Positions 4,526-61,662 of a stretch of DNA of 64,000 bases are shown here, piece by piece (within the stretch, counting starts at the first letter, position 1; every line of letters starts with the position of its first letter). Both the position numbers and the translations under genes were made by a program. The DNA is from Thalassolituus maritimus. Its GTDB lineage: Bacteria > Pseudomonadota > Gammaproteobacteria > Pseudomonadales > Oceanobacteraceae. The notes beneath the pieces are model-generated. The model searched no databases. It saw only the letters and a program-made list of their open reading frames with translations, and was not told the DNA's origin. The DNA lies in the NCBI RefSeq assembly GCF_900156675.1, contig NZ_FTOH01000001.1, positions 1-64,000 of the forward strand. The letters are read 5' to 3'.

Positions 4526-4564
4526 GCGCCAGATAATGTTAATGATTCGCTGGAAATTTATTGT

Positions 4565-5830: not shown

Positions 5831-5853
5831 TACATCGAGCTGACTGAATTTTT
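5810..5853. terminator. Bidirectional terminator between mbnPH operon and PAP2 gene
   Basis: A perfect 14-bp stem (AATTCAGTCAGCTC at 5810-5823, its complement at 5837-5850) with a 13-nt loop is followed by T residues on the plus strand and, because the stem ends in AATT, has a weaker T run on the minus strand. It covers the stop codon of the upstream gene and separates two convergent units. Confidence 0.85.
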
Positions 5854-5866
5854 CGTGTTATTTCTT

Positions 5867-7592: not shown

Positions 7593-7691
7593 CGCATTTG
7601 CCTGTTCTTCGTGCATATACACTACTTTGCAATTGCGATATGACAGAAAGGTTTCAGCTCGGTGAAGCTATGATGACGAAAGGAAAGGTTG

Positions 7692-7736
7692 TTTTACCGG
7701 GGGGTAAAAAGGTTTTGTGCCCCGGTGAAGGGGCAC
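7692..7736 (-). terminator. Terminator downstream of the AraC-family gene
   Basis: Read on the minus strand, a 7-bp stem (GTGCCCC/GGGGCAC, 7717-7736, loop of 6) is followed by AAAACCTTTTT. A second hairpin, TTTTACC-N4-GGTAAAA (7692-7709), adds the T-rich part. It ends the AraC transcript ahead of the glycosyltransferase promoter. Confidence 0.65.
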
Positions 7737-7743
7737 TGAAATA

Positions 7744-8772: not shown

Positions 8773-8927
8773 GGGATATCCGTCTTATTGTTATGCCTGT
8801 CGCACAGGGCGTTACGTTGTTCGATTCGGTGGTTTTTAATCACTGGCCGAATTTTAACGTGTTCGATGACGCCATACCTTACTATAAAGAGGGCATTTAA
8901 CGCCATACGGCAATGTAACCAAATTTA

Positions 8928-44941: not shown

Positions 44942-46507
44942 ATGCAGAATGATCCGAGTCTGGCGTTTTCCTGGTGTGCGGAATCAGGCTTATCCGCTCT
45001 TACCCCGCTTCCCATGTTCCGATCGTGTTTGGCTGAGAGTTATCAGCAGCGCACGCATGAGGCCGTATCGTTGGTGAAACGTCACCTCGAATCGGTGTCT
45101 CAACCATTTTCAGGCGTCACCCCCGCTGAGTTGTCTCCTGAAGTGCGGGATATTGATCTGTCCCAGCCACTCGCTTCCTCGTCTGATGTATTGGACGAGT
45201 TATCGCGTGTTTACCTGCGCGATGCGGTTTATTTTCATCATCCACGTTATGTCGCTCATCTGAATTGCCCAGTGGCCTTGCCTGCGGTGACGGCCGAAAC
45301 CATTCAGGCCGCAATTAATACCTCAGTCGATACCTGGGACCAGAGCGCGGGTGCGACCCTGATTGAGCAAAAGCTGGTGGATTGGACCATTGGCCGCATT
45401 GGCCTTGGTGAAAATGCCGATGGCATCTTCACCAGTGGGGGGACGCAATCCAATCTGATGGGCATGCTACTGGCGCGGGATAACTACGCCTTGCGCTACC
45501 TTGGCGGCTATTCCATCAAAGAAAAAGGCCTGCCGGCGTGTGCCCATCGTTTCCGTATATTTACCTCTGAGTACAGCCACTTCAGTGTGTGTAAGGCGGC
45601 TGCCATGTTGGGATTGGGGTATGACTCGGTTGTGCCGGTTGCGGGCGATTCGGCATTCCGCATGGACGTCAAGGCGCTTTCAGAGGCGATTCACGACGCG
45701 CAGATGCAGGATTTAATCCCCTTGGCTGTGGTGGCGACTGCGGGGACAACGGATTTCGGTAGTGTCGACCCACTGCCTGCGATTGCAGAAATCTGTGAGC
45801 AGAATCATATCTGGATGCACGTTGATGCAGCCTACGGTTGTGGTCTGTTGGTTTCGCAGAAATACAACTCTCTCATTGGTGGTATTGAGTTCGCCGATTC
45901 TGTCACCGTGGACTTCCATAAGTCGTTTTTCCAGCCCGTTGCATGCAGCGGTTTCTTTGCACGCGATAAGAGTCACCTGAATGTGGTTACGCATCACGCT
46001 GATTATCTGAACCCTCTGAGCGCAGCGCAGGAAGGCACGCCAGACCTGGTCAATAAAAGTATTCAGACGACCCGTCGTTTCGATGCTCTGAAGCTGTGGA
46101 TGACGTTGCGGGAAGTGGGTGCGGAAGGTATTGGCAAAGAGTTTGATGCTGTCATCGATTCGGCGCGCGCATTCCATCGCTGGATGGAAACTCTGGAGGA
46201 TGTCGAGTGCCTGCATGAGCCTTCCATCAGTGCCATTGTTTTCCGCTATCTGCCGGCGAACGCGACAGAGGGTGACACGCTTAACGAATGCAATCGTCAG
46301 ATCCGTAAAGCCCTGTTTTCGGGTGGTGCGGCTTTGATCGCTGGGACCAAAGTAAAAGGCGCCCAGTATCTGAAATTTACTGTCCTGAATTCGGAAACGT
46401 CGATGGAAGACATTCAGTACATCATTGGCCAGATTCGTACCATCGGTGCGGGTCTTTGGGAAAGGTTAAACGCGGCTGACGTAAACTCTGTGGAGTCATC
46501 AAAATGA
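44942..46507 (+). CDS. PLP-dependent diamine-forming decarboxylase (DesA-like)
   Basis: A 521-residue group II PLP decarboxylase. GIFTSGGTQSNLMGML, VVATAGTTDFGSVDPL, WMHVDAAYGCGLLVS and SVTVDFHKSFFQPVACSGFF (Schiff-base Lys in HKSFFQP) are diagnostic. The HKSFFQP form is like DesA-type lysine decarboxylases and relatives acting on ornithine or 2,4-diaminobutyrate in siderophore clusters. It would supply cadaverine or a similar diamine for hydroxamate building blocks; substrate cannot be fixed by eye. It is the first gene of the operon and overlaps the hydroxylase gene by 4 nt. Confidence 0.87.
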   Translation: MQNDPSLAFSWCAESGLSALTPLPMFRSCLAESYQQRTHEAVSLVKRHLESVSQPFSGVTPAELSPEVRDIDLSQPLASSSDVLDELSRVYLRDAVYFHHPRYVAHLNCPVALPAVTAETIQAAINTSVDTWDQSAGATLIEQKLVDWTIGRIGLGENADGIFTSGGTQSNLMGMLLARDNYALRYLGGYSIKEKGLPACAHRFRIFTSEYSHFSVCKAAAMLGLGYDSVVPVAGDSAFRMDVKALSEAIHDAQMQDLIPLAVVATAGTTDFGSVDPLPAIAEICEQNHIWMHVDAAYGCGLLVSQKYNSLIGGIEFADSVTVDFHKSFFQPVACSGFFARDKSHLNVVTHHADYLNPLSAAQEGTPDLVNKSIQTTRRFDALKLWMTLREVGAEGIGKEFDAVIDSARAFHRWMETLEDVECLHEPSISAIVFRYLPANATEGDTLNECNRQIRKALFSGGAALIAGTKVKGAQYLKFTVLNSETSMEDIQYIIGQIRTIGAGLWERLNAADVNSVESSK

Positions 46508-47856
46508 GCACATCAACACAAGAAATATTCGACTTTGCAGGGATCGGCCTTGGTCCATTTAATCTGGGATTGGCCTGTCTGACCGACACGTTGAGTGACG
46601 TCAAGTCGGTGTTCTTTGAACAGCGCGACGAGTTCAAATGGCACCCGGGTATGATGCTGGAAAGCACGCACATGCAGACGCCATTTATGTCAGACCTCGT
46701 GACACTGGCGGACCCGACTCACCCGCTGAGCTTCTTGAGCTATATCAAGCAGCAGGGGCGTATTTACTCGTTTTATATTCGCGAAGATTTCTTTCTGGCC
46801 CGCCGTGAGTATCACCAGTATTGTCAGTGGGCGTCAGAACAGGTCGGTAATATTCGCTTCCGTCACTGCGTGCAGGATGTGCACTATGATAAAGAGCGGG
46901 ATCTTTACGTAATCAAAGCCCAGCAAGAAGATGGGTCAGAAACCATTACGCTCGCTCGCAAACTGGTTCTGGGCACTGGGCCAGTACCTTATATTCCAGA
47001 GTGCACAGAAGAGCTTGATGGTACTGTTATTCACTCTTCTGCGTATTTACACCGCAAGAAAGAACTGCAGAAACAGTCTTCCATCACCATCGTCGGCAGT
47101 GGGCAGAGTGCGGCTGAGATCTATCATGATCTACTGCAGGAAATTGATGACCACGACTATGAACTCAACTGGGTTACCCGCTCTCCACGTTTCTTCCCGC
47201 TGGAGTATTCAAAACTGACGCTGGAAATGACGTCTCCGGAATACGTTGATTACTTCTACAATTTGCCCGCGTCTAAGCGTGATGAACTGATCACCAAGCA
47301 AAAGCATCTTTATAAAGGCATTAACGAGTGCCTGATTAATGAGATTTACGATCTTTTGTACGTTAAGCGCCTTCAATCGGACTTCACCACGCATCTGCTG
47401 ACCAATACAACACTGTGTGATGCTGAAAATACCGAGGCCGGTATTAAGCTCAAGCTGCACCATGATGAACAGGACAAGTCGTACTCACTGGATACCTCGG
47501 CGGTTGTGCTGGCGACGGGTTATCGTTACCAGCTACCCGACTTTCTGGAAGGGCTGCGTGGACAGATTCGTTGGGACAGTCAGGGCCGGTTTGATGTGGC
47601 GCGTAATTACGCCATTGATAAAGACAATTCTCGTCTCTTCGTACAGAACGCCGAATTACATACTCACGGTTTTGTTTCGCCGGACCTTGGGATGGCCTGT
47701 TATCGCAACAGCTACCTGATTAAGGAAATTACCGGGACCGAACATTACCCCATTGAGCAGCGTATTGCCTTCCAGCAGTTTGGTGTGCCGGAAGAGGGTG
47801 GTGCTGACATTAAATCGGTATTGGCTTCTTCTCCTGAGGATGTTTTTTCTTTATGA
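46504..47856 (+). CDS. FAD/NADPH-dependent amine N-hydroxylase (DesB/IucD/PubA-like)
   Basis: A 450-residue flavin monooxygenase. The FAD motif is GIGLGPFNLGLACL, followed by FKWHPGMMLESTHMQTPF, the NADPH motif ITIVGSGQSAAEIYHDL, the family block WVTRSPRFFPLEYSKL and VVLATGYRYQLPDFL near the C terminus. These belong to the ornithine/lysine/diamine N-hydroxylase group. Here it probably oxidises the terminal amine of the diamine made by the upstream enzyme. Both junctions are ATGA overlaps, implying tight coupling. Confidence 0.92.
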   Translation: MSTSTQEIFDFAGIGLGPFNLGLACLTDTLSDVKSVFFEQRDEFKWHPGMMLESTHMQTPFMSDLVTLADPTHPLSFLSYIKQQGRIYSFYIREDFFLARREYHQYCQWASEQVGNIRFRHCVQDVHYDKERDLYVIKAQQEDGSETITLARKLVLGTGPVPYIPECTEELDGTVIHSSAYLHRKKELQKQSSITIVGSGQSAAEIYHDLLQEIDDHDYELNWVTRSPRFFPLEYSKLTLEMTSPEYVDYFYNLPASKRDELITKQKHLYKGINECLINEIYDLLYVKRLQSDFTTHLLTNTTLCDAENTEAGIKLKLHHDEQDKSYSLDTSAVVLATGYRYQLPDFLEGLRGQIRWDSQGRFDVARNYAIDKDNSRLFVQNAELHTHGFVSPDLGMACYRNSYLIKEITGTEHYPIEQRIAFQQFGVPEEGGADIKSVLASSPEDVFSL

Positions 47857-49067
47857 GAGTCATTCGCTGGAGCCTGATTCTGATGACGCTGGTGTCGGTA
47901 ATGGCCGACACCATGCTGTTGCCGTTTTATCCGCAATTCTTTGAAGAATCGTTTGGGGTCTCTGACCCTGCGCATGCGGGATGGTACATCGCCGCCTGTT
48001 GTACGACCGTCATGCTGTGTTTTCCGTTGTGGGCAAAAGTGGCGCGTCGGTGGCATGAGCTGCCGCTGTGGGTGGTCACTCAATCCGTATCAGCAGTGTT
48101 AGGGGTTATCTGTTATCTCACAGAATCACTGCTGACCTTCTGGATCGTGTCGCAATTGATGTTGATGATGAAGGCCAGCTATCTGCTGATCTATCCATTT
48201 GCTATCCGCCTTGAAGGTACCGGTAAGATCGGTGGATTTGTCGCGCTGTTTGCGGTGCTGATGCACATCGGAACCATTAGTGGCGCAGTGCTCGGTGGCT
48301 ATCTGCTGCAATTCTGGGATGGGCGCGACGCCTATCTGGTCATGATCGCCAGTGATCTGGTGCAAATCGTCATTTGTATTGCCTTGATGTTGGCGTTGAA
48401 AATTCGTCTGACTGAGCCGGGATACACCCCTGAAGAAGTAGCCGATACCCCTCGAAGCCCGATGGTTTTGAAATTGGCTGTCGTGGCAATGTTGTTTTAT
48501 TTCAGTGTATTCCTGATTCGACCATTTTTTACCTTGTACTGGGCCGACATCAGCTTTGCCCCCTGGAATGGTGAATTTCCGAGCAGTCTTGTGTATGCCA
48601 TTCCGGCAATCATTGCCCTGCTTACTGTCGTTTGGCAGCGCATAAAAGCGCCTCAATTAACCAGTCAGCAATTACTTATTCGTGGCTTGCTGGTGATTCT
48701 GGTCGGGCTGGTTCTTCAAGGGTTGGGTGACCCGCTGTGGACGGTTATTGGCCGGCTTATTTTCGGCTGGGGACTGTTTATGGGGGTAGTCCATATCGAG
48801 GTCCTTCTGTTTGCCAATAGTCGACCGGAACGGTTTGGTGAGGACTTCAGTCGAGTTCACCTTGGCCAGAATATCGGCATTATCCTGGCGTCATTTGCTG
48901 CAGGTGCCTTAGTTGCAGACGTCAGCCACACCGCTGTATTCGCGGCGGCAACGGCTGGAATCGTTGCCGTGGTCATGGTCGCCTGGAGGTTAGGCGTGTT
49001 TACCCGAGCGGCTGGCCCCGAGGAACCTGACCACTCTATTAACGATGCTGAAGAGGCAATTTCCTGA
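47853..49067 (+). CDS. MFS transporter, probable siderophore exporter
   Basis: A 404-residue protein with about 12 hydrophobic segments. MADTMLLPFYPQFFEESFGV is the first helix region, WAKVARRWHELPLW is the loop corresponding to motif A, and SVFLIRPFFTLYWADI opens the second half. MFS proteins of this type in hydroxamate clusters (AlcS, PvsC-like) export the finished siderophore; import of the ferric form is the alternative. It overlaps the hydroxylase and the synthetase genes (ATGA and TGATG). Confidence 0.85.
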   Translation: MRVIRWSLILMTLVSVMADTMLLPFYPQFFEESFGVSDPAHAGWYIAACCTTVMLCFPLWAKVARRWHELPLWVVTQSVSAVLGVICYLTESLLTFWIVSQLMLMMKASYLLIYPFAIRLEGTGKIGGFVALFAVLMHIGTISGAVLGGYLLQFWDGRDAYLVMIASDLVQIVICIALMLALKIRLTEPGYTPEEVADTPRSPMVLKLAVVAMLFYFSVFLIRPFFTLYWADISFAPWNGEFPSSLVYAIPAIIALLTVVWQRIKAPQLTSQQLLIRGLLVILVGLVLQGLGDPLWTVIGRLIFGWGLFMGVVHIEVLLFANSRPERFGEDFSRVHLGQNIGIILASFAAGALVADVSHTAVFAAATAGIVAVVMVAWRLGVFTRAAGPEEPDHSINDAEEAIS

Positions 49068-51490
49068 TGCAATCGAAGTTTGATACTGCACTTGGACATG
49101 TTGAGTTTGTTCCGTTTGCTACGGACCAGCACCTGGAAACTCTGTATGACTGGGCGTCGCGTCCGTATGCTCGTTTTTGGGGATATAACGGGATGTCGAT
49201 CGCACAGGTCGATGAAGAGTACCGTAAACTTCTGGCCATTCCCGGCTACGAAGTTTTTATGGGTCTGATCGACGGACAGGCCGAATTTATGGTCGAGTAT
49301 TACGACCCGTCTGAAGATGCGATCGGCCAGCACTACGATGTACAGTCGGGTGATCGTGGCATGCATGTATTGCTGTCGCCGCCGGATCAGCCCCGCTCCG
49401 GCTTCAGTTGGCAAGTGTTCCGTACCGTCATGACGCATCTGTTCACCGATTCTCGTATTGAGCGGATTGTGGTCGAGCCGGATGCCAGCAACGCAAAAAT
49501 TCACCAGCTGAATCTGCGTGCAGGCTTCAGTCATGTCGCGCAAGTCACACTCCCACATAAAGAGGCGCTATTAGGATTCTGTGCCCGGCAACAGTTTGAA
49601 CAAGCTTGCGCCCATGAAGACGCGACCCGCGAGCGTCGCTGGTTTGATCGCCTGCAAAAAAATCCAGCACTGGCGACCGAGCATCTGAGTGCTGAACTGT
49701 GGCAGAAAGCGAACCGCCATCTCGCGGCAAAGCTCATTCGTGAAATGATTCATGAGGTTCTGGTCACACCTGAAGAGACCGTCCCTGACAATAGCAGCAC
49801 AGCAGGCGAAACGGATAAGTATTGGTCTGTCACCAATAAAGCCGGTGACGTGAAGTATCAGTTCTGCGCGACGCAATACGCATTGGATCACTGGCAGGTT
49901 GACCCGGATACGATTAAACAACCAGGCCAGTCTGAGTCGGTCGATGTCATGCAGATGATACTGGCGTTTTCAGAAGACCTTGGCGTACCGCCAGCGAATA
50001 TGCCCACGTATCTCGAGGAAATTTCAGCAACGCTGTGTGGTCTTGCCTGGAAATACCAGCACCGGAACGTACCTGCGGTTGAATTAGCGCAAGCCGATTT
50101 TCAGACCATAGAAGCATCAATGACCGAAGGCCATCCGGTATTTATTGCGAACAATGGTCGTATCGGTTTCAGTGCCGCTGATTTTCGCTCGTTCGCACCT
50201 GAAACAGGAGCGCCTGTGCGCTTGCTGTGGGTGGCGGCGCGTCGCGATCGATCAGTGTTTTCCTGTTCAGAAGGATTGACAGAAGCCGCGGTGCTGGAGC
50301 AGGAATTCGACCTGAGTACCTTGGTGCACTGGCGCAATATTGTTAGGGAAAAAGGCCAGAACCCAGATGATTTTGTTCTGGTCCCTGTCCACCCATGGCA
50401 GTGGCATAACAAGCTCTATCAGGCCTATGCGCCGGATATTGCTGGTGGTTATCTGATACTGCTTGGCGAAAGCCCGGATGACTTTCAGGCGCAGCAATCC
50501 ATTCGTACATTTTTTAATAAGTCTGTACCGACACGCAGCTATGTGAAGACGGCGCTTTCGGTTCTGAATATGGGCTTTATGCGGGGGTTGTCTGCCGATT
50601 ATATGGAAGTAACGCCGGCCATTAATGACTGGCTGAGTTCGCTGGTAAAAGAAGATGCTTACCTGCAAAACAACGGCATGGGGCTTTTGCGTGAATTCGC
50701 AGGAACCGGTTACCGTTCGCCGTATTTCAGTCAAAAAGCGTTCTACGACAACCCGTACCGCAAAATGCTGGCGGGTCTCTGGCGTGAAAACCCCCTGAAT
50801 CAAATTGCCGATAATGAGCGGGTGATGACGATGGCCGCACTGCTGCATCGCGATCCCGATGGAAATTCCCTGGCCGCTGAACTGATGCGGGCCTCAGGCA
50901 TCGGTGCTGATGCGTGGTTGCGCAGCTACCTGAATGCTTACATGGCGCCAGTAGTTCACTGTTTCTACGCTCACAACCTGGTGTACATGCCGCACGGTGA
51001 AAACGTGATTCTGGTGATCGAAAATAACACGCCGGTACGCGCCATCATGAAAGACTTGGGTGAAGAGATCTGCTTGTTAAATATCGGTGAAGAACGAACC
51101 AATGCACTCCCGGAGGCCGTTCGTCGTATATCCATTCCTCTGCCCGAGTCTATGGAAATACTTTCCATCTTTACCGATGTGTTTGACGGCATTCTGCGTT
51201 ATCTGGCGCCGGCATTAATTGAAACCGGTGATATCACTGAAACTGCCTTCTGGCAGGCCGTGGCGGATGTCTTTATCGACTACCGTCGGGCGATGGCGAA
51301 CGACGATTCCATTCAGCAACGCATCCGCGAGCATGATCCCTTTGTCGGTGAGTTTGCCAACTCGTGCCTGAACCGTTTGCAGTTGAAAAATAACAAGCAA
51401 ATGGTTGATCTCGCCGACCCGGGAAGCAGTTTGCAGTTGATTGGAACCCTGCCTAATCCGGTTGCTCAGTTCAGACCGGACGATTGGTGA
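49067..51490 (+). CDS. Fused GNAT acyltransferase-NIS siderophore synthetase (DesC-DesD/AlcB-AlcC-like)
   Basis: An 807-residue two-domain protein. Residues ~10-185 are the AlcB/IucB-type acyltransferase: YDWASRPYARFWGYNGMS, FMGLIDGQAEFMVEYYDP, VEPDASNAKIHQLNLRAGF. Residues ~230-800 are an IucA/IucC NIS synthetase with GHPVFIANNGRIGFSAADF, LVPVHPWQWHNKL, SYVKTALSVLNMGFMRGLS and the C-terminal FhuF-like block APVVHCFYAHNLVYMPHGEN. The first domain would put succinyl or acetyl on the hydroxylamine, the second would join units by ATP-dependent amide formation, giving bisucaberin-, putrebactin- or desferrioxamine-like products. In many clusters these are separate genes; here there is no stop between them. 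Confidence 0.88.
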   Translation: MQSKFDTALGHVEFVPFATDQHLETLYDWASRPYARFWGYNGMSIAQVDEEYRKLLAIPGYEVFMGLIDGQAEFMVEYYDPSEDAIGQHYDVQSGDRGMHVLLSPPDQPRSGFSWQVFRTVMTHLFTDSRIERIVVEPDASNAKIHQLNLRAGFSHVAQVTLPHKEALLGFCARQQFEQACAHEDATRERRWFDRLQKNPALATEHLSAELWQKANRHLAAKLIREMIHEVLVTPEETVPDNSSTAGETDKYWSVTNKAGDVKYQFCATQYALDHWQVDPDTIKQPGQSESVDVMQMILAFSEDLGVPPANMPTYLEEISATLCGLAWKYQHRNVPAVELAQADFQTIEASMTEGHPVFIANNGRIGFSAADFRSFAPETGAPVRLLWVAARRDRSVFSCSEGLTEAAVLEQEFDLSTLVHWRNIVREKGQNPDDFVLVPVHPWQWHNKLYQAYAPDIAGGYLILLGESPDDFQAQQSIRTFFNKSVPTRSYVKTALSVLNMGFMRGLSADYMEVTPAINDWLSSLVKEDAYLQNNGMGLLREFAGTGYRSPYFSQKAFYDNPYRKMLAGLWRENPLNQIADNERVMTMAALLHRDPDGNSLAAELMRASGIGADAWLRSYLNAYMAPVVHCFYAHNLVYMPHGENVILVIENNTPVRAIMKDLGEEICLLNIGEERTNALPEAVRRISIPLPESMEILSIFTDVFDGILRYLAPALIETGDITETAFWQAVADVFIDYRRAMANDDSIQQRIREHDPFVGEFANSCLNRLQLKNNKQMVDLADPGSSLQLIGTLPNPVAQFRPDDW

Positions 51491-51528
51491 GGTTGGTGAC
51501 TAGCGGGGTATAACGGGGGGCATAACGG

Positions 51529-52197
51529 GTGTCTTGCGAACGTTGCCGTCTTGCCTGGCAAAGTGAATGTTCAGCGGAGGAAGAACGCCTGCCAGTGCAG
51601 CCTGAGGCCAGCGCCTTGTATCAGTCGTTACTGGCTTTGGGGGCGGACAATCCGGGGCGATACGCGCGTCACCGTTTGTGGGCGCTGATGTTCTGGCGAC
51701 CTCTTTATCTGGTGGCATGCGTTGTTTGTTGTCAGGACAGCCACGTCGATCTCTCCGAGTTCCGTTTGCATTGGGCAGAGGGGACTGTGGTTGGCTTCAG
51801 CGGCGTTCGGCGGCAAGACCATAGTCGTTTTGCGAGTTCGACGCAGCATGCTGAAACGGCTGCTGAGCGTTCGCAACGGGGCGCCGAGAAACAAATGACG
51901 ATACTGGTACGTTGTTGCGATCAGTTGCTGGCGTCGGTCTCTGAGCTTAAGCGCATCAACCGGCGTTTTGCCCTGCAACTTGTGCTTGATGCATTACTGG
52001 AGCGATTGGCTGCATTGGATGTGTCGCCTGATCAGTCACTTAAGATTGCGAACGCGTTTGTGCAGGCGACTAACGAGACATTGGGGTTGGCGGTGTTGCC
52101 GGGCCATTGGCAGCCGGATTATCAACGACAAAGCTGCTGCTTACATTACCTTAAATCGGCGAATGACCTGTGTCCGGGTTGTCCGCGAAACGTATAA
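51529..52197 (+). CDS. Siderophore-type ferric iron reductase (FhuF-like [2Fe-2S])
   Basis: A 222-residue protein whose C terminus, QSCCLHYLKSANDLCPGCPR, is the CC-X10-CX2C cluster motif of FhuF-type ferric-siderophore reductases. The N terminus has a further Cys cluster (MSCERCRLAWQSEC). The rest is helical and degenerate relative to FhuF. It would release iron from the hydroxamate complex by reduction in the cytoplasm. The start is GTG behind GGGGGG, 38 bp after the synthetase gene. This implies that the ferric complex crosses the inner membrane, yet no ABC importer is encoded in the cluster. Confidence 0.8.
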   Translation: MSCERCRLAWQSECSAEEERLPVQPEASALYQSLLALGADNPGRYARHRLWALMFWRPLYLVACVVCCQDSHVDLSEFRLHWAEGTVVGFSGVRRQDHSRFASSTQHAETAAERSQRGAEKQMTILVRCCDQLLASVSELKRINRRFALQLVLDALLERLAALDVSPDQSLKIANAFVQATNETLGLAVLPGHWQPDYQRQSCCLHYLKSANDLCPGCPRNV

Positions 52198-52218
52198 ATA
52201 TTAAGACAGGAAACTCAC

Positions 52219-53334
52219 ATGAGTGAACAGAACGGCCGGGTACATATTATCGATTTCGCCCGTGGAACGGCGGCTTTGTTGTTGGTAATCGTTCATGCCT
52301 TGTGGATGTATGGTTCAGTTGAAACTCAGTTTCATGCGCCGCTCGGTACGGCGATTCATATCGTTGGGCAAATGACAGCGGCCTTTTTACTTTGTATGGG
52401 CTTCTCGTTTGTTATTACCCGTCACTCTTCCATTGGTTATGGCATTAAACGGGCATTGATGATTCTGGCGGCAGGGTATCTACTCAACACGCTGAAGTTT
52501 ATTGTGCCGATTTCTGTGTTTGGCACTATGCCGGAGAACTTTATCGAGGCTTATGGTTGGAGCTCGCCGTTGGACAGCTCGCAGCTATGGTACCTGTTCC
52601 GTACCGGTGACATTCTTCAGTTTGCCGGCATCGCCTTCCTGATTATTACCTTTGTACGTCATTACATCTCGAATAAGTGGGTCATTCTCGCTCTTGCTTT
52701 ATTGTCTGTATTGGTCGCTGAGGTGATACGCGGTTATCGTCCTGGCATTACCGGGCTGGACTATGTTGCTGACTTGCTCTGGGGAGATCAGTGGAACGTG
52801 TATTTTCCGGTATTCCCGTGGATCAGCAATATCCTTGTCGGCATGTTTATGGGCATGGTCTTCCTCGAGCGTGATAAAGACGAGCAGGCCGTGTACGACA
52901 TGTCACTTAAGCTGGGTGTTGGCTTGATGGCGATTGGTGTGCCTTTGATTCTGTATGACTGGGATCTGTTTTTCCGTAATTTCTTCCATACCGGTATTGG
53001 CGGTGCGATTTATCTGATTGGCATTAACCTGTTCGCATTCTGGTGTGTGTCCTGGATGATCTTCAAGCCTTTAAAAAGCAAAGCCTGGTTTATGAACAGC
53101 ATGGTGTACCTGAGCCAGCGCGTCACCACTATTTATATTATTCAGTGGACGCTGGTGTGTTGGTTAATGGGAATTATTGGCTACCAGACGTTGAACAGTG
53201 GTCAATTACTGATGCTATTCCCGTTTATGATCGCGGCGACGCTACTCCTGGACTATCTGCTGAAAAAACTTATTGATTCGTTTTCTGCAGATAAATCTGA
53301 TGAGCAACCACGGGATTCAGAGAAGGTCGCCTGA
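52219..53334 (+). CDS. Multi-pass membrane acyltransferase-like protein (HGSNAT/acyltransferase-3 type)
   Basis: A 371-residue protein with about ten membrane helices. It starts VHIIDFARGTAALLLVIVHAL, the conserved D-x-x-R/K-G...H pattern of DUF1624/heparan-glucosaminide acetyltransferase and acyltransferase-3 families, in which an Asp/Arg and His near the first helix handle the acyl donor. FPVFPWISNILVGMFMG is also typical of this group. Such proteins move acyl groups from cytosolic acyl-CoA onto extracytoplasmic acceptors. Its place between the reductase and the surface lipoprotein suggests acylation of the siderophore or of a surface component. Function in iron uptake is inference. Confidence 0.75.
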   Translation: MSEQNGRVHIIDFARGTAALLLVIVHALWMYGSVETQFHAPLGTAIHIVGQMTAAFLLCMGFSFVITRHSSIGYGIKRALMILAAGYLLNTLKFIVPISVFGTMPENFIEAYGWSSPLDSSQLWYLFRTGDILQFAGIAFLIITFVRHYISNKWVILALALLSVLVAEVIRGYRPGITGLDYVADLLWGDQWNVYFPVFPWISNILVGMFMGMVFLERDKDEQAVYDMSLKLGVGLMAIGVPLILYDWDLFFRNFFHTGIGGAIYLIGINLFAFWCVSWMIFKPLKSKAWFMNSMVYLSQRVTTIYIIQWTLVCWLMGIIGYQTLNSGQLLMLFPFMIAATLLLDYLLKKLIDSFSADKSDEQPRDSEKVA

Positions 53335-53410: not shown

Positions 53411-56400
53411 ATGCCACATGTGAAAGTCGCCGCTCGGTTAATTCGACAACTGTTAAATCCCATCAATATGGTCTTCTTCACCATGCTGGTTATCACAGGA
53501 TGTGATATCCAGTCTCCCGAAGTAGCACCCAATGCCCCGATTCCTGCTTCGCCGTCGCAACCCGCCGATGGCGATGATCAGGCTCCGGTCGATAATGGAC
53601 CACTGCCGCTGGCTTCTGACGCTGAAGAAGTCAGTCTGGACGTTGACGCCACGCAGCCTGTTTATCTGGATTTAGATACCGGGTCTGAACTTTCTATTTC
53701 AACTGAGCAGGCGCAACTCAATGGTGACTGGGATGTGGTCATTGATGGCAATAATATTCGTGTTAACGAAAATGCCGCCAATGTTACTGGTCAACGTATC
53801 GCTGCAACTCAAGCGGTGGATTTCAGCGCCAACATTGATACCAGCCTGCTTTCATATCAGACCGAGGCTTACACCGTCGCCATTGATCCCCTGACCATTC
53901 TTAATGGCACGGTTCAGCAGGGTAATAGCTGGCTGGTGCGTACGGATCAGGCTGAACGTGTTGTCTACATGAATATTGCAACCGCGTACGCCGATCGTCG
54001 TCAGATTGATCTGTACCTGCGTGAGCAGGTTGCGGGCACGGACGTGTTTTCCACTCGTGAATTTGTCGGTCTGGTCATGCGCGAGCTTGAGGACGGCACT
54101 CTTGGCGTTTATTTCGATATGGACGCCTACTTTGAGCAGCCCCTTTCTGATGAACTCTATTTTAATCACCCAACCCGGGCGATGACGTCAGTCGTTGCAG
54201 ACGACGAGCCCATGGAAGGCTGGGATTTCTTTTTCAGCGCCGAAATTGAGATTGATACATCGACGGAATCCGGGTCAGCTCAAATCGTGGGTGAGCCCAT
54301 TGCCCGATTGAATGGTGGCGCGTCCGAGAGTGGACTCGGCGCTGTTATCTTCCTCAATTTTAATAACCCCCAGTACAACGCTCAATCCACTAATTTCCGC
54401 AATCCCGATCAGACGCTGGAAGAGGTGTGGGGATTCAGCGGTATGGAAGACTTCTTCTCAGACAGCCGGTTTGCAGGTCTGGATTGGCAGGTCGACGGGT
54501 ATAACCCGACCTATGGCCCCATGTGGTACACGGCCACTGAACCTCAGCAGAAGGTAGCAACAGGGCGTGTATATATCGTTGAAAGCACAGAGGGCTACGC
54601 CTACCGTTTCCAGGTCAGTGACATTAGGGATGGACGAAATACCGTTCGCTTTGAAGGTTTTGATCCGGGATCAGGCCAGCAGGCACCGGCGCGTGTTGAA
54701 ATTATTCTGAACCCGATTGATACCCTGTCTGCGATTGAAAATACGGCATCCAATGGCAGCAGTATTTCGGTGTTTGGTGAGATCCCTATTTCTGAGATCG
54801 ACGGCCTGCAATTATCGCTTACGGGGGCCGACCGTGAATTCTTTGAACTGACCTCCGACTTTAAATTGATCTTTAATGCGCCGGATTTTGAGAGCCCACA
54901 AGATGCAAACGGTGACAATCGTTACGAGGCGTTTCTTCGTGCTGAGAACAGCAGTTCTACAGATGTCATCGCCGTCAGCGGTATTGTCCAAAATGCGAAT
55001 GAGCCTGCCGCCTTCAGTTTCGAGCCACGCATTGCCAGCGTAGATGAAAACGGGCTCTGGTCACTGACCTTGCCAGAGATGCCAGACGAAGGTGATACGC
55101 CGAATGGCGCGCTCAGTTATTCTATTTTTAACGCGCAGAGTGGCGATGCGCGTTATTTCTACCTCGATAGCAGCAATGATCGCGTACAACTGAAACTGTC
55201 CGCGCAGGATTTTGAACGCCCCGCCGATGTAGATCAGGCCAATACATACGATGTGATTCTGGTTGTGAGCGATGGCGATGAAAATATGACCTCGCTTTCT
55301 GTGTCGGTCACGGTACTGGATCTGACTGAAAGTGCAGAGTTTTCACTGAATCCTCTTATGGTGCGCAGTATCGATGAGGTCACTCTGGACACAGGTATCT
55401 ATGCCAGTATATCCGGCCAGCCGGTGGGGAATCTCGGCTTTAGACTGGTTGATGCCGAGTCCGGCAGCGGTGACAGTGCGCGTTTTAATATTGATGCTAC
55501 CACTGGTCTGATCACCCTGTTGCCGCAAGATTATGAAGCACTGGCGCTGGATAAGAGTGTTGGAGACGGTTCGGCTATTGCTTTAAATGTGGTCGTTGTC
55601 GCAACCGATGATGATGGCAATATCGCCTCGACGTCTTATGCCGTCCTGATTCAGGATCGCGTTGAATACGCAGGTTTTGATGTTGACCAGGTAGCAAGCT
55701 ACTCACTGGCGGAAAACAGCAGTGATTCCGGTGTGACATTACAGCCGAATCCCGCCGCTTACACTCAGGAAGTCCCTTGCGCACCTTCGGGCAGTTCGCA
55801 GGCCACGGCTATTTGTCAGGAAGACGTAGAGTTGAATTATGAGGTGACTCTGACAGGTGAAGACGCCGCATCTTTCGTCGTCACGCGCTCGGCGTCGAAT
55901 AAATTTGACGTGTCTTTTGATGGAGCCGCAGATTTTGAATCCGCGATGGATGCGAACGCGGATGGCCAGTTTGAAATTGGCGCTGAACTGACGGACGGCG
56001 AAGGCAATCGCCAGACTTTATCGTGGACTGTAAACATCACCGACGTGATCGAAAACGCCGACTTCAGCGCTCCAGAGGGCAGCACCGACGTGGCCGAAAA
56101 CAGCGTGGCGACCATCACCTACCAACTTCAAGGTGATGAGCCCATCGGTGAACTGACCGCAGTGCTGAGCGGAGACGACGCAGCCTTCTTCCGCATCAGC
56201 GACAGCGGCACGATAGAATTTACTGGTTCAGAAACAGGTACCGGAGCCGACTTCGAAGCACCGGCCGACAGCAACGCCGATAACGCCTATCTGGTGCTGG
56301 TGACTCTGACGGACGCCGATGGCAACAGCACTATCCATCGCCATACCGTCAGGGTCACTAACGTCACCGAGAGCGCAAGCTTCAGTATCGCCGACATCGC

Positions 56401-59400
56401 GCCACGCAGCGTGAATGAAAACGAAAGTGATACCGGCGTTACGCCTCAGATTAATGGTGAGCCTATCGGAGGTCAGGAAGCGCTGGTGTATCGTCTGGAA
56501 GGCGACAACCGCGATTACTACGACTTCGACAGCCGCACCGGCGTCGCCAGCCTGCAACCACAGGACTATGAATCCCTGCCGGGCAGCGACAGCGGAGAGC
56601 CGGTGGCTCTGCCAGTGACCCTGATCGCCGAAGATACGGATGGTAATGTCGCCAGCACAAGGATCAGTATATCCGTGGTCGACGTCGATGAATACGATGG
56701 CTTCGACGTGGAGGCCATCGAACCATACAGCGTCGATGAAAATACTATCGATTCGGGTGCTGAAATTCGGGTATCTCCAGATACCGTCGCGGGCGCGCCA
56801 CTGTCGTATACGTACGAATTATCCGGTGCGGACGCGGCTCAATTTACAATCGACGATACCGTACGCCCGGCGATAGTGCGGCTCAATATTCAGGACTTTG
56901 AAGCACCGTCTGATGCTAACCAGAATCAAGTCTATCAGGCACTGGTGACGGTAACCGACATCGTTGGCGGTTCAAAATCAGTCACGGTTTCTGTCACTGT
57001 TGTAGACGTCACCGAAGTCGCAGACTTCACACTGACATCACAAACGATCAGTGGCGACGAAAACAGCGTCATCAGCGTTCCTGTAGAACTCAGTGGCGAT
57101 GCTCCGATTGGCACACTGAACTACAGCCTGAGTGGCGACGACGCCAGCTTCTTTACCCTGAGCCAGAATGGCAGCCTGACCCTGAGTGCGCGCGACTTCG
57201 AAACCCCGCAGGATCTGAACGGCGACAACCAATACCTGGCGGTATTGAGTGCCGCAGACAGCGACGGTAACCAGGCTCAGGCGAATATTGCTATCAGTAT
57301 TAACAACGTGGCCGAAAGCAGCAGCTTCAGCTTGAGCGGCATCAGCGATTACAGCATCGACGAAGTCACCGTCGACAGTCCACGCACGCCGACGGCCAGC
57401 AGTGGTTATGTTGGCAGCCTGACGTACCGGTTAACCGGCAGTGATGCCGCCCGGTTCAGCATCGACAGTGCCACGGGTACCCTGCGCCTGAAACCACAGG
57501 ACTACGAGGTGCTGGCTGGCGCGAGTGAGCCAGCGCAGAGTGCTGGCCCGGCCTATGCCCTGAATGTGGTTATCGAAGCCGCAGACAGCGACGGCAACAC
57601 GGCGACCTTGGCCATCACCGTCAGCGTACGGGATGTCGTTGAATACGCAGGGTTTGAATTCGCGCCTCTGAGTCATCAAAGCGCCAACGAGAATGCACTC
57701 ACGGAAGTGCCGCTGTCAGTGACGCCACTGAGTTACACCAATCCAATACCGTGCGTGCCCGAAAGCGTGGATCAGGTGTGCTCAGAAACCGTGACACTGA
57801 ATTACACCCTGAGTCTGTCGGGTACGGACTCTGATGCCTTCAGTCTCAATGGAGGCCTGCCTGCAACGACGCTGCGTCTGTCAGCACAGAATTTTGAAGC
57901 TCCGGCCGACAGTGATTTGAATAATACCTACGGTGTGACCGTCAATGTTGATGACGGCATCAGTGGCGTGCAACAACAGTCTGTCATCATCACAGTGAAT
58001 GATGTTATGGAGGTCGCCAATTTCAGCCTTCAGAACTCGGATTACAGCGTCAATGAAAATACTCAGGACGTTGGGGTGGTACCCGTGGTTTCTGGGGATG
58101 CGCCAATTGGTTCGCTGAGCTATCAGATCACGGGCGCAGATGCGGGTGCATTTACATTGGATAATGATAGACGTATCCGTTTGACCGATATGGCTGATTT
58201 CGAGGCTCCAACCGATGCTGATGGCGACAACAACTACCAGATTACCTACACAGCGACGGATGATGATGCCAATTCGGCATCGGTCGATATTACAGTGACG
58301 GTGCTGGATACCGCAGCGGAGACGCTGGAGTTCAGTGCTTTATTTGGCGCGCGATATATTGATCTGGATACTGCGACGGTATCGACATCGGCTGTTTCTG
58401 GTTGGGATCTACGCGTCAGCGGTGACTTTATCAGCCTGAACAGCACAGCGGCATCTGCATTCGCGAACACCCGCGAATTCGATGAAGTGAACGGCCCGTT
58501 AGGCTCGTCGGACTACCTGCCCACTCTTGCAGCCGAAACCAAAGATAATGCCGATAGCTGGAATGACAACTGGGGCCTTTGGGCTTCTGACAATGACTCT
58601 GAAAATATAGAAAAGGCCTTTGGAAATCAGTTTTATCGTGTCTACGATGTTGCTGGTGATGAGGGCATTGCGGATGAAGTCGTCGACGATTTACCGGTAA
58701 AACCTGAGAACTACTTTATTCTCCGTACCTCTGAAGGTACTCGTTACGTCCGCATGCGCGCAGTCAGTTTCGGCGATCGCAACAGCGACGGTGTCGCACA
58801 AACGAATAATGGATATTTCTATTACTCCGTATTGGATGTGGATGCTGGCGACACACAATTCGGCCCGGAGCAGGAGTTGTGTCTGAGTTTCCGTCATGGC
58901 AGTTACCCAGAAGGTGATCCGGACGGAGAAGGCGATGTCTGGTACAAACAAACCTTCTTTGATTTTGACTACATTTCCCAATACAAGCCCTTTGGCTGTG
59001 ATCAGGGCGATTACGTTGATTATTCTGGCTCGCTAACGTTCGACGTGGATATTGCGCCAGATATGAACCGCCGTACCAGTCAGTTTGAACAGGTATCGAA
59101 TGGCGTGGCGTCGGCAACAGAGGCGCTGGAAAATTGGGATATGGTATTGGGTATTGCGTTCCGTCCAGAGAAGAATTGGTTGGGTATTCGCCGTGCCAGT
59201 GCAACCCGCGTACGAGCGGCGATTAACGGTAACCGAACCGGCGGTGTAGCAGCAATACAAGGCTTTACCCGTACCGAGGATGGCGACGGTAATCTCAGTC
59301 CTATGCTGGATAACCTGGATGACTTCCGTCATCTGTTAAGTGGCGAAGGAAAATCTCCCGTGTCTCAGTACGATCACCTTCTGTTTAATGCTGACGGCAG

Positions 59401-59533
59401 TATTTCCAGCAACCAACGCGTGTACCACGTACGTACGGATACCGGCGCGCGATTTAAAATTCAGGTGTTGTCTTATGATGGCAACCTGAGCGGTACCCAG
59501 GCCGACTACAGCCTGTTGTATGAGGGTTTCTGA
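53411..59533 (+). CDS. Giant surface lipoprotein: HmuY-like modules flanking 11 cadherin-like repeats
   Basis: A 2040-residue lipoprotein (basic n-region, hydrophobic stretch, lipobox VITGC, Cys31). Four modules share a HmuY-like pattern, each with a WD motif and a later (V/I)x(R/E)(T/S)xxG/A strand: W107/R177, W271/E391, W1665/R1772 and W1909/R2008, for example GWDFFFSAE with YIVESTEGYAYRFQV and NWDMVLGIAF with YHVRTDTGARFKIQVLSY. HmuY proteins bind heme at the surface. Between residues ~445 and 1640 lie 11 cadherin-like repeats marked by DFE(A/S)P.D.N..Y or QDYE and acidic Ca-binding DxNDN-like segments. Two loops carry Cys pairs (VPCAPSGSSQATAIC, IPCVPESVDQVC). The stop overlaps the receptor start (TGATG). 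It is likely an extended outer-membrane stalk that captures heme or ferric complex for the receptor. Confidence 0.8.
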   Translation: MPHVKVAARLIRQLLNPINMVFFTMLVITGCDIQSPEVAPNAPIPASPSQPADGDDQAPVDNGPLPLASDAEEVSLDVDATQPVYLDLDTGSELSISTEQAQLNGDWDVVIDGNNIRVNENAANVTGQRIAATQAVDFSANIDTSLLSYQTEAYTVAIDPLTILNGTVQQGNSWLVRTDQAERVVYMNIATAYADRRQIDLYLREQVAGTDVFSTREFVGLVMRELEDGTLGVYFDMDAYFEQPLSDELYFNHPTRAMTSVVADDEPMEGWDFFFSAEIEIDTSTESGSAQIVGEPIARLNGGASESGLGAVIFLNFNNPQYNAQSTNFRNPDQTLEEVWGFSGMEDFFSDSRFAGLDWQVDGYNPTYGPMWYTATEPQQKVATGRVYIVESTEGYAYRFQVSDIRDGRNTVRFEGFDPGSGQQAPARVEIILNPIDTLSAIENTASNGSSISVFGEIPISEIDGLQLSLTGADREFFELTSDFKLIFNAPDFESPQDANGDNRYEAFLRAENSSSTDVIAVSGIVQNANEPAAFSFEPRIASVDENGLWSLTLPEMPDEGDTPNGALSYSIFNAQSGDARYFYLDSSNDRVQLKLSAQDFERPADVDQANTYDVILVVSDGDENMTSLSVSVTVLDLTESAEFSLNPLMVRSIDEVTLDTGIYASISGQPVGNLGFRLVDAESGSGDSARFNIDATTGLITLLPQDYEALALDKSVGDGSAIALNVVVVATDDDGNIASTSYAVLIQDRVEYAGFDVDQVASYSLAENSSDSGVTLQPNPAAYTQEVPCAPSGSSQATAICQEDVELNYEVTLTGEDAASFVVTRSASNKFDVSFDGAADFESAMDANADGQFEIGAELTDGEGNRQTLSWTVNITDVIENADFSAPEGSTDVAENSVATITYQLQGDEPIGELTAVLSGDDAAFFRISDSGTIEFTGSETGTGADFEAPADSNADNAYLVLVTLTDADGNSTIHRHTVRVTNVTESASFSIADIAPRSVNENESDTGVTPQINGEPIGGQEALVYRLEGDNRDYYDFDSRTGVASLQPQDYESLPGSDSGEPVALPVTLIAEDTDGNVASTRISISVVDVDEYDGFDVEAIEPYSVDENTIDSGAEIRVSPDTVAGAPLSYTYELSGADAAQFTIDDTVRPAIVRLNIQDFEAPSDANQNQVYQALVTVTDIVGGSKSVTVSVTVVDVTEVADFTLTSQTISGDENSVISVPVELSGDAPIGTLNYSLSGDDASFFTLSQNGSLTLSARDFETPQDLNGDNQYLAVLSAADSDGNQAQANIAISINNVAESSSFSLSGISDYSIDEVTVDSPRTPTASSGYVGSLTYRLTGSDAARFSIDSATGTLRLKPQDYEVLAGASEPAQSAGPAYALNVVIEAADSDGNTATLAITVSVRDVVEYAGFEFAPLSHQSANENALTEVPLSVTPLSYTNPIPCVPESVDQVCSETVTLNYTLSLSGTDSDAFSLNGGLPATTLRLSAQNFEAPADSDLNNTYGVTVNVDDGISGVQQQSVIITVNDVMEVANFSLQNSDYSVNENTQDVGVVPVVSGDAPIGSLSYQITGADAGAFTLDNDRRIRLTDMADFEAPTDADGDNNYQITYTATDDDANSASVDITVTVLDTAAETLEFSALFGARYIDLDTATVSTSAVSGWDLRVSGDFISLNSTAASAFANTREFDEVNGPLGSSDYLPTLAAETKDNADSWNDNWGLWASDNDSENIEKAFGNQFYRVYDVAGDEGIADEVVDDLPVKPENYFILRTSEGTRYVRMRAVSFGDRNSDGVAQTNNGYFYYSVLDVDAGDTQFGPEQELCLSFRHGSYPEGDPDGEGDVWYKQTFFDFDYISQYKPFGCDQGDYVDYSGSLTFDVDIAPDMNRRTSQFEQVSNGVASATEALENWDMVLGIAFRPEKNWLGIRRASATRVRAAINGNRTGGVAAIQGFTRTEDGDGNLSPMLDNLDDFRHLLSGEGKSPVSQYDHLLFNADGSISSNQRVYHVRTDTGARFKIQVLSYDGNLSGTQADYSLLYEGF
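55328..58318 (+). repeat. Three-copy cadherin super-repeat inside the giant lipoprotein gene
   Basis: Linkers between repeats recur with period three: ESAEFSL / EYAGFDV / ENADFSA, then ESASFSI / EYDGFDV / EVADFTL, then ESSSFSL / EYAGFEF / EVANFSL. Units start near 55328, 56369 and 57314 (residues 640, 987 and 1302) and are about 347, 315 and 335 residues long. This indicates growth by duplication of a three-domain block. The stretch ~56050-57640 looks more GC-rich in codon choice than the rest. Confidence 0.75.
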
Positions 59534-61662
59534 TGGGGGTGAAATATCCTTTTTGGGTAATACCAGTTTTTGTAGTGCCAGTATGGGTATTTCTGGCAGG
59601 CAATGTTTATGCGGAAACAGATACCGATCCGAATTTTGGTCTCGACTTGCTTGAACTGTCTGATGTCGTGGTGGAGGGGGAAAAAGAAGAAACGCGACGC
59701 TTTCGTACACAAGACTCTAACGCTGCGTTAAAAATAAATCTTTCCGCGAAGGAATTACCACAGTCTATTTCTACCATCAGTAGTGAGCAGTTAACGCAAT
59801 TCGATTTGAGTGACGTAAACCAGGCGCTGGAATATTCCTCGGGTGTGAACGTTCAGCGTGTTGAAACTGAGCGGACCTACTTTACCGCCCGCGGCTACAA
59901 CATTACGAATTTTCAGTATGACGGTGTGGGTTTGCCGTTAACGGATGGCTTATTACGCGGTGGAATCGATACGGCGATGTTTGATCGTATCGAAGTCTTG
60001 TCCGGCGCGAACGGCATTACCTCTGCGTACGGCGACCCTTCTGCAACGGTGAACTTCGTCCGTAAAAAGCCGCAGGATGCATTCGGTGGGGATCTATCTT
60101 TTGGTGTAGGCAGTTGGAACCAGCTGCGTTTGCAGGCTGATATTACAGGCACGTTGACCGAAGGCTTGCGAGGGCGCGCAGTCGCCGTCGGTGAGTCGGC
60201 GGATTCGTATCTTGACCGCTATCACCGGGAAACAGGTTTGTTTTACGGTGTCGTTGACTACGATGTCAGCCCAGATACCGTCCTTACGCTGGGAGCCAGC
60301 CAGCAGGCGCAAAAGACCGACAGCCCAAGCTGGGGGGCGCTGCCTATCGTATACAGCGATGGCACGCCGACAGATTACTTGCGTGCAACCAACACAGGGC
60401 CTGAGTGGGCTTACACGCACAACGATACGCAAATGCTGTTTGCCGAACTTACGCACTATCTGAGTTACACCTGGGAAGCTCATGTGCAGATACAGCAATT
60501 TACGACGGATACCGATAGCCGTCTGTTCTTTTTTACTACGACCGAAGACCGCGTATCGGGTGACGGCCTGAGAGGGCGGGGCAGTGCTTACCAGGCAACG
60601 ACTGAGCAATCTGTTTTTGACCTCTATGCACAGGGTTATCTGACACTGGGTCATCGGGATCTGCAGTTGGTGACAGGCGCACAATTATCCCGCTCGAAAA
60701 CCGATGACGTATCCACTGCCAGTGAGTTGGGTGAAGTCGCGGTGGAGTCGCTTCGGACCTGGGATGGCGATATTCAGGAGCCAGAGTTTACCGGTGGTAG
60801 TTCTGGTCGGGATCTGGAGCAGATGTTGTTCAGCCTGTACTCCACTGCCCGACTGGACGTAACCGAAGATGTGCTGGTTACTGCGGGTCTTCGGTTAATG
60901 AATCTGGATACTCAGGGCGAGTCATACTCAGAAGAAGTCGATACTCAGATTGAAAATGAAGTCGTGCCGTACCTGGGTGTCGTCTACAACCTGACCGATT
61001 CACTTGCTGCCTACGCCAGTGCGACAAAAATATTCAGCCCACAAGAAACCGACAAGGTGACTCAGGGAGGGCAACTACTGGAACCGGAATCCGGCGATGC
61101 CTACGAAGTAGGATTTAAGCTGGACCTGTTTAACAAAGCAGCGCTGGCATCCGCAGGCTTATTCAAAACTGAGAAGACGAACGTTGCCGAGATTGCAGGT
61201 ATCAGTGATGAAACGGGACGGCCGTATTATCGCGCGGGCGAGGAATATTTCAGTCAGGGCTACGAATTGCAGTTGTCAGGTATGGTGTCACCCGCAGTTG
61301 CCATTAATACCAGTTATACCCATGTAAAAATCACCAATAAAGACGATGAACAGATACGTACTTTCAACCCAGAAAATACATTCCGTCTGACATCACTTTA
61401 TACCTCAGGTACGGGCATTGGATTGGGGTTCAGTCTGCGTTGGCAGGATGAAATAGAGGCCCGTTCTGTCAATCAGGGAGCCTACACCCTGATTGATGCG
61501 ATGGCGTCTTATGAGGTGTTCGATAATATTACGTTGCGTGCGAATGCAACGAATATTGCTGACTCTAAGTATTACACCAGCTTCTACTGGGCAGCGGACA
61601 ATAATCAGGCATTTTACGGGCCCGGCGCCGCGTATTCTGCGTCTGTTACCTGGGACTTTTGA
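59533..61662 (+). CDS. TonB-dependent ferric-siderophore receptor
   Basis: A 709-residue receptor. A signal peptide (VFVVPVWVFLAGNVYA) is followed by a TonB-box-like ELSDVVVEGE, then the plug: LPQSISTISSEQLTQFD, NQALEYSSGVNVQ, FTARGYNITNFQYDGVGLP and FDRIEVLSGANGITSAYGDPSATVNFVRK. The barrel ends in SASVTWDF with the terminal Phe. The plug pattern is that of the FhuE/FoxA/FpvA siderophore branch, without the N-terminal signalling domain. Its ATG overlaps the lipoprotein stop, so both are made together. It probably imports the operon's own siderophore; heme or a xenosiderophore is possible given its partner. Confidence 0.92.
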   Translation: MGVKYPFWVIPVFVVPVWVFLAGNVYAETDTDPNFGLDLLELSDVVVEGEKEETRRFRTQDSNAALKINLSAKELPQSISTISSEQLTQFDLSDVNQALEYSSGVNVQRVETERTYFTARGYNITNFQYDGVGLPLTDGLLRGGIDTAMFDRIEVLSGANGITSAYGDPSATVNFVRKKPQDAFGGDLSFGVGSWNQLRLQADITGTLTEGLRGRAVAVGESADSYLDRYHRETGLFYGVVDYDVSPDTVLTLGASQQAQKTDSPSWGALPIVYSDGTPTDYLRATNTGPEWAYTHNDTQMLFAELTHYLSYTWEAHVQIQQFTTDTDSRLFFFTTTEDRVSGDGLRGRGSAYQATTEQSVFDLYAQGYLTLGHRDLQLVTGAQLSRSKTDDVSTASELGEVAVESLRTWDGDIQEPEFTGGSSGRDLEQMLFSLYSTARLDVTEDVLVTAGLRLMNLDTQGESYSEEVDTQIENEVVPYLGVVYNLTDSLAAYASATKIFSPQETDKVTQGGQLLEPESGDAYEVGFKLDLFNKAALASAGLFKTEKTNVAEIAGISDETGRPYYRAGEEYFSQGYELQLSGMVSPAVAINTSYTHVKITNKDDEQIRTFNPENTFRLTSLYTSGTGIGLGFSLRWQDEIEARSVNQGAYTLIDAMASYEVFDNITLRANATNIADSKYYTSFYWAADNNQAFYGPGAAYSASVTWDF

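Follow-up and report, generated by a model that had tools for sequence, protein, structure and literature searches.

A giant HmuY-cadherin-HmuY lipoprotein next to a siderophore receptor in Thalassolituus maritimus, a candidate for ferric hydroxamate capture

The window, which is the whole 64,000-nucleotide stretch analysed here with its positions on contig C18 of a Thalassolituus maritimus genome (3.86 Mb, 30 contigs), encodes a giant lipoprotein of 2040 amino acids (aa) with HmuY-type modules at both ends and a cadherin-like stalk between them. Its gene follows a predicted hydroxamate siderophore operon and runs into the gene for a TonB-dependent receptor (TBDR) of siderophore type. Comparison of sequences and gene neighbourhoods points to a fused HmuY-type capture system that would have turned from heme to the operon's own, or a related, ferric hydroxamate siderophore, a reading that is given a probability of about one half.

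The giant lipoprotein and its modules

An earlier note, made from the window sequence alone, had described a lipoprotein of this length whose stop overlaps the start of the receptor and which carries four tryptophans (W107, W271, W1665 and W1909), each followed by an aspartate, together with R177, E391, R1772 and R2008 further along the modules. All of this was borne out. The frame at 53411-59533 is a single open one with a lipobox, the residues are at the positions given, and the TGA of the giant and the ATG of the receptor have one base in common (TGATG, with the A at 59533). From the N-terminus the order is signal peptide, lipobox (VITG before C31), tether, two HmuY-type modules, 11 repeats and two further HmuY-type modules, and there are no DNA-level tandem repeats in the gene.

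The proposal that both ends are of HmuY type was upheld by sequence, with the fourth module marginal. Against Pfam HmuY (PF14064, family cut-off 27 bits) the whole giant scored 47.3 bits (3.2e-12), the N-terminal end alone passed the cut-off with 34.4 bits (2.9e-8) and the C-terminal end alone fell marginally under it with 26.5 bits (7.7e-6). Module hidden Markov models (HMMs) were built from 25 related double-HmuY proteins and controlled with 500 shuffles, the best of which scored 6.9 and 5.4 bits. All four modules beat the best shuffle, modules 1 and 3 strongly and module 2 modestly (11.3 against 6.9), while module 4 is only just over chance by sequence since its 7.1 bits stand against 5.4. 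In profile-profile comparison with the family the N-terminal end was spanned over both modules at 91% probability and the C-terminal end over 63 columns only at 92.7%; the family HMM aligns across the C-terminal end from aa 1633 to 2028. The two ends of the giant are not close copies of each other, because comparison of their profiles gave a probability of 3.7%.

The count of 11 cadherin-like repeats between the end modules also proved correct. The repeats are 98-135 aa long, and their profile matched 75 PDB sequences at E<=1, with the 60 listed being mostly cadherins (best 2.4e-6); taken singly, 4 of the 11 matched Pfam Cadherin (PF00028) at E<=1, the best at 1.9e-5. The linker between repeats has the consensus VxVxDVxExAxF, and the EN and DFE/DYE motifs are kept. 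The motif DxNDN, which is the calcium-binding linker motif of cadherins, was not seen. The stalk is acidic, with a net charge of -158. Repeats 3, 6 and 9 are closest to one another (39-47% identity), which suggests that repeats 2-4, 5-7 and 8-10 are one three-domain unit present three times.

The split Oleispira relatives and the question of ligand

Close relatives of the giant's ends were found at one locus only in the collections, on contig JAESQF010000049.1 (L076, the same contig as L038 of genome G034) of an Oleispira metagenome-assembled genome (MAG) from the same family as the window genome. Here a 640-aa N-like lipoprotein, a 696-aa lipoprotein, a 530-aa C-like protein, a 450-aa lipoprotein and a TBDR are encoded in that order. 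The 640-aa protein resembles the N-terminal end of the giant (3.9e-19) and the 530-aa protein, which by eye has a signal peptide and no lipobox, resembles the C-terminal end (1.2e-23, 28.7% identity over aa 1716-2023). Since the N-like gene precedes the C-like one and a siderophore-type receptor gene follows, the fused giant keeps the order of the split genes. The receptor best matches FhuA (6.4e-119) and FoxA (6.2e-112), both below equivalog cut-offs. Neither the 640-aa nor the 530-aa protein matched Pfam HmuY at E<=1; both are linked to HmuY through the giant, and the 640-aa one in addition through the family HMM, in the building of which it had been used. The 450-aa and 696-aa proteins each have a stretch resembling the giant's repeats, at 15.5 bits (0/1000 shuffles as high) and 7.2 bits (2/1000) respectively. 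These two lipoproteins (696 aa, 3571-5661; 450 aa, 7429-8781) gave no informative Pfam or NCBIfam match, and the 450-aa one was not counted as HmuY as its match to the double-HmuY HMM lies on the first 54 residues only.

Phylogenetic analysis placed the giant's N-terminal end with its Oleispira counterpart and the C-terminal end with its own, each at 99/97, with the 25 family proteins apart at 96/91. The tree has 29 rows (the 25 family proteins, six of odd layout having been left out, plus the four ends), its branches are long and its root is for drawing only. We infer that the giant arose by fusion instead of fission.

The ordinary double-HmuY family gives the background against which the ligand has to be judged. 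HmuY matches were found in 40 of 390 genomes of the order (Pfam, E<=0.01) in frames of 352-482 aa, bar three short ones of 63, 172 and 298 aa. Among 15 wide family loci that were chosen and fetched, the Oleispira locus not being one of them, a TBDR gene resembling the receptor of the window genome's own heme-type operon adjoins the HmuY gene in 14, relatives of all three ATP-binding cassette (ABC) transporter genes of that operon occur in 11, and a relative of its HemS gene occurs in 8. That operon (L039), which is separate from the giant, encodes a TBDR, a double-HmuY protein, HemS (PF05171, 5.1e-74), a binding protein (Peripla_BP_2), a FecCD permease and an ATPase (ABC_tran), and the best NCBIfam match of its TBDR is TonB-hemin (2.9e-50, below cut-off). 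At the giant such a context was not found, the partner receptor being of siderophore type and part of a siderophore operon. The double-HmuY proteins of genomes G249 and G287 (L050 8432-9757 and L051 8030-9376) had the top Pfam scores in the search of the order; in the 18 kb fetched around each, the transporter genes of the heme operon had no relative, and the ligand of these proteins may differ.

The alignment set consisted of 31 family proteins and the Oleispira one, six of the 31 being of a layout that cannot be aligned over the full length. A histidine in a loop of module 2 is kept in 30 of the 31. At the matching position of module 1 a histidine is present in 14 of the 27 proteins with a residue there, and it aligns with the module-2 histidine when the modules are compared with each other. 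In the four siderophore-linked ends the position is occupied by Q and G (giant) and by S and G (Oleispira), so that histidine is found in 0 of 4. The double-HmuY family profile aligns with Porphyromonas gingivalis HmuY (3h8t, 3e-15), and by that alignment the loop is the one that holds the heme ligand H166, the residue context of which was derived from a primer printed in PMC8911585; because the columns do not coincide exactly in the 3h8t alignment but differ by a few residues, the claim concerns the loop and not a proven ligand. The giant's ends share with Oleispira no histidine, one methionine (M345) and two cysteines (C1824 and C1863). The motifs WNxNW and GDVWYKQ are common to the two C-type proteins and absent from all 31 family proteins, and are candidates for parts of a new binding surface. 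The earlier note had left the ligand as heme or ferric siderophore. Of these the siderophore is favoured, because the heme-type histidine is absent and the genome has its separate HmuY operon with HemS and transporter genes.

On the preferred reading the giant would be anchored by its lipid at the outer-membrane surface, where two double-HmuY pairs, one at the stalk's base and one at its tip, would bind a ferric complex, presumably a siderophore. Collection of the ferric siderophore would fall to the C-terminal pair on the distal stalk end, and docking on the receptor, with transfer of the complex, to the N-terminal pair close to the anchor. The giant would thus represent the fused form of an HmuY-type lipoprotein system that had departed from the heme branch of the family. 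A wider and more tentative proposal is that a branch of the HmuY fold was retooled from heme to ferric hydroxamate in marine Gammaproteobacteria, two separate binders having been fused in the window genome by a long cadherin stalk into a two-headed arm, which would catch the complex at a distance from the cell and relay it to the receptor at its base.

The siderophore operon and the rarity of the giant

The position of the giant next to the receptor within an operon for a siderophore made independently of nonribosomal peptide synthetases (NIS), as had been claimed, was confirmed by the decarboxylase, monooxygenase and fused GNAT-NIS genes upstream. The siderophore operon extends over 44942-53334 and the giant's open reading frame (ORF) begins 76 bases downstream. 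In the bisucaberin-putrebactin-desferrioxamine scheme, as given in PMC5577590, bibC is such a fusion, and the set of decarboxylase, monooxygenase and fused acyltransferase-NIS genes appears to be of this type, its product being predicted only as a hydroxamate.

Features of the window from the siderophore operon to the partner receptor
Feature	Positions	Strand	Evidence
PLP (pyridoxal phosphate)-dependent decarboxylase (lysine/ornithine type), predicted step 1 of a hydroxamate NIS siderophore	44942..46507	+	Pfam PF00282 7.7e-62; NCBIfam RhbB 1.8e-114, below cut-off
N-monooxygenase, lysine/ornithine-type	46504..47856	+	Pfam PF13434 4.5e-130
MFS (major facilitator superfamily) transporter, probable siderophore exporter	47853..49067	+	Pfam MFS_1 2.2e-15
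GNAT acyltransferase fused to NIS synthetase (BibC/DfoC-like)	49067..51490	+	Pfam PF13523 2e-41, PF04183 3.5e-76, PF06276 1.6e-32
FhuF-like siderophore ferric-iron reductase	51529..52197	+	TIGR03950 8.8e-16, below cut-off
HGSNAT-type membrane acyltransferase	52219..53334	+	Pfam PF07786 2.1e-20
HmuY-cadherin-HmuY giant lipoprotein, 2040 aa, ORF open throughout	53411..59533	+	
Signal peptide and lipid-anchor Cys31, Asp at +2	53411..53503	+	by eye
HmuY module 1, about aa 75-245	53633..54145	+	27.1 bits (module-1 HMM); PDB 8b6a 0.0018
HmuY module 2, about aa 250-420	54158..54670	+	11.3 bits; profile-profile alignment over both modules
11 cadherin-like repeats, aa 441-1642	54731..58336	+	
HmuY module 3, about aa 1643-1830	58337..58900	+	23.7 bits (module-1 HMM); WNxNW, plus GDVWYKQ just past module end
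HmuY module 4, about aa 1831-2040	58901..59530	+	7.1 bits (module-2 HMM); 28.7% identity to Oleispira protein over aa 1716-2023
TonB-dependent siderophore receptor, FauA/FhuE-like	59533..61662	+	TIGR01783 over cut-off; FauA 1.9e-106, FhuE 3.9e-104, both below equivalog cut-offs

The HGSNAT-type acyltransferase might serve in siderophore modification. Such a gene closes the siderophore operon in two further genera too (L061 10241-11449 and L062 10300-11346). A Fur box upstream of the operon was rejected, as the best listed score of 12/19 is at chance level. Elsewhere in the window a Fur-box-like site at 4532-4550 has 15/19 matches and lies directly before an ORF at 4565; scores of at least 15 were reached in 0 of 10 shuffles of the window.

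Searches for further examples of the giant gave a picture of rarity. Among 93 genomes, including 44 of the family, the N-terminal end found a good match outside its own genome only in Oleispira (G034, 1.3e-13), three further matches of 6.6e-4 to 7.9e-4 over 40-87 residues being ordinary double-HmuY proteins, and there was no match in 8 same-genus genomes. Genome searches with the C-terminal end, with the C-end alignment A1 and with alignment A3 matched only the genome itself (1/274, 1/369 and 1/293 respectively); they indicate rarity and not absence, because the Oleispira genome gave no match, presumably since the sets drawn did not include it. A scan of genome contigs with the whole giant yielded 47 stretches with a pattern match, none coding for a relative, and a scan of the same contig collection with A1 yielded 25 stretches with one relative, that of Oleispira; because the seeds of both scans are exact matches to a handful of short peptide patterns, distant relatives escape them. 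The C-terminal end had no match in plasmids. At E<=0.01 the order-wide search with Pfam HmuY missed the giant, which was found at a looser limit, and other giants could have been missed too. The looser search of the class (E<=1) gave matches in 12 of 198 genomes, with the giant listed by weak pieces, and a single other HmuY frame that was both above its cut-off and over 500 aa in length, from genome G427. This HmuY-PKD protein is a lipoprotein of 762 aa (L091 6597-8885; HmuY 3.4e-15, PKD_4 1.1e-42), the gene for which overlaps a TBDR gene (pair 4564-8885). For the architecture beside TonB receptors that the earlier note had thought worth seeking, the sets searched gave the split, collinear Oleispira version and no second fused giant. 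Among the literature matches listed, judged by titles and abstract openings, no HmuY-type siderophore binder or HmuY-cadherin protein was described.

Rival readings and known systems

A number of observations weigh against ferric siderophore capture at the cell surface. The co-conservation of the giant with this receptor, by which the earlier note would have stood or fallen, fails in the sets searched. Receptor relatives in the 44 family genomes are at most 37% identical. Six of them (31-37%), none similar enough to count as an orthologue, showed no HmuY-like gene in the available flanks, one of the six loci being a contig of 3.1 kb. A search of 55 genomes with the NIS synthetase at 1e-100 gave 5 that encode it, its own included, and in three of these (G010, G014 and G021) the operon occurs without the giant, with the locus of the fourth relative (G056) stopping at a contig edge. 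Within the 20 kb fetched around each operon, nothing similar to the window receptor at 1e-5 is encoded in G010 or G014, while a TBDR 23% identical to it lies upstream in G021. The giant and its receptor are therefore an addition peculiar to the window genome in the sets searched. The split relative rests on one MAG locus, and its receptor and that of the window belong to different siderophore subfamilies and are not orthologues (28% identity over 149 aa). The surface location is uncertain, because the lipid cysteine is by eye followed by D32, an aspartate at +2 being an inner-membrane signal in E. coli, and because no clear Slam partner was seen. The family may not be purely heme-linked, given that transporter genes are missing in 4 of the 15 loci, and Met-type heme binding by the giant may have to be reckoned with for the reasons given below. 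A 1039-aa protein encoded after the G014 operon was tried as an HmuY protein and rejected, its match to the double-HmuY HMM covering the signal peptide only; this lipoprotein (L062 11788-14907) has a weak C-end lectin match (1.1e-6, below cut-off). Elsewhere in the window genome a SlipAM-like barrel (L080 113-2646) scored 21.7 bits against a cut-off of 22, or 22.2 with its neighbours, and was not used for surface export; it adjoins a FecR-domain protein.

It is unlikely, given the lost histidine, that the giant is a heme capture protein with the true function of HmuY, using methionine or other ligands and placed in a siderophore operon so that two iron sources come under one control. The Pfam HmuY score is over cut-off and the wider family is mostly heme-linked. 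HmuY homologues of Bacteroidota bind heme via methionine (PMC8911585). M345, common to the giant and Oleispira, lies 27 residues before W372 (30 in Oleispira), which is the spacing of H134 and W161 in HmuY. Set against this are the loss from all four ends of the histidine that 30 of 31 family proteins possess, two associated receptors that are both of siderophore type, and a heme-type HmuY operon already in the genome.

Two other readings concern the stalk and the anchor, and both are quite improbable. The giant could be mainly an adhesin or a matrix or vesicle stalk, its HmuY modules being structural or other binding domains and its link to the operon incidental; the length of the protein and its acidic repeats would fit a fast-changing surface protein, as would an N-terminal end unmatched in 8 same-genus genomes, but the one-base overlap with a siderophore receptor argues otherwise, and so do the Oleispira end modules, which without such a long stalk are still encoded upstream of a siderophore-type receptor. 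Alternatively the protein could be periplasmic, held in the inner membrane by its aspartate at +2 and buffering ferric siderophore behind the receptor. The C31-D32 pair agrees with this, as does the residue usual at +2 in the order's family members, which is Gly in 20 of the 26 with a recognised lipobox (in 5 of the 31 it was not recognised). However, a cadherin repeat is about 4.5 nm long, so that a stalk of 11 would measure about 50 nm and exceed the usual dimensions of the periplasm, the E. coli rule may not be that of this lineage, and the +2 residues of the Oleispira lipoproteins are T, G and K in the three cases.

The proposed capture of ferric hydroxamate by the giant can be set beside several known systems. 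With the HmuY family (PF14064; P. gingivalis HmuY 3h8t, Bvu, Tfo, PinO and PinA) the giant shares HmuY modules recognisable by sequence, the lipid anchor and the TBDR-adjacent gene. P. gingivalis HmuY, however, is a single-module heme binder serving the heme receptor HmuR, whereas the giant has four modules on a cadherin-like stalk, lacks the heme-type histidine of its gammaproteobacterial relatives and is associated with a hydroxamate siderophore operon. Heme-type double-HmuY lipoproteins, such as that of L039, likewise have a tandem pair of modules and lie beside a TBDR, but they are 350-451 aa long, retain the histidine in 30 of 31, have heme-type import genes at most loci and possess neither a stalk nor a second pair. 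The HmuY-PKD protein of G427 is also a long HmuY lipoprotein with a gene overlapping that of a TBDR; it differs in its one HmuY match, its PKD repeats, the retention by eye of the histidine and the lack of a C-terminal HmuY pair.

The established role of HmuY is heme binding, and a branch without the histidine beside hydroxamate receptors would, if the reading is true, show a heme binder turned siderophore binder. Because a fused and a split version exist, the idea of a hand-over can be tested on single modules. Gammaproteobacteria would also gain a counterpart of the XusB strategy of Bacteroides. According to PMC13142918, the XusB lipoprotein binds ferric siderophores and delivers them to a TonB transporter, and the B. 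fragilis homologue binds the hydroxamate ferrichrome too, so that XusAB may be compared by function with the giant and its receptor as a siderophore-binding lipoprotein handing over to a TonB transporter. In structure the two differ, as XusB is a seven-bladed beta-propeller (DUF4374) engaged in xenosiderophore piracy, with no HmuY modules and no stalk, and a Pfam scan of the giant at E<=1 gave no match to DUF4374; the likeness would thus be one of working, a lipoprotein in each case delivering ferric siderophore to its transporter.

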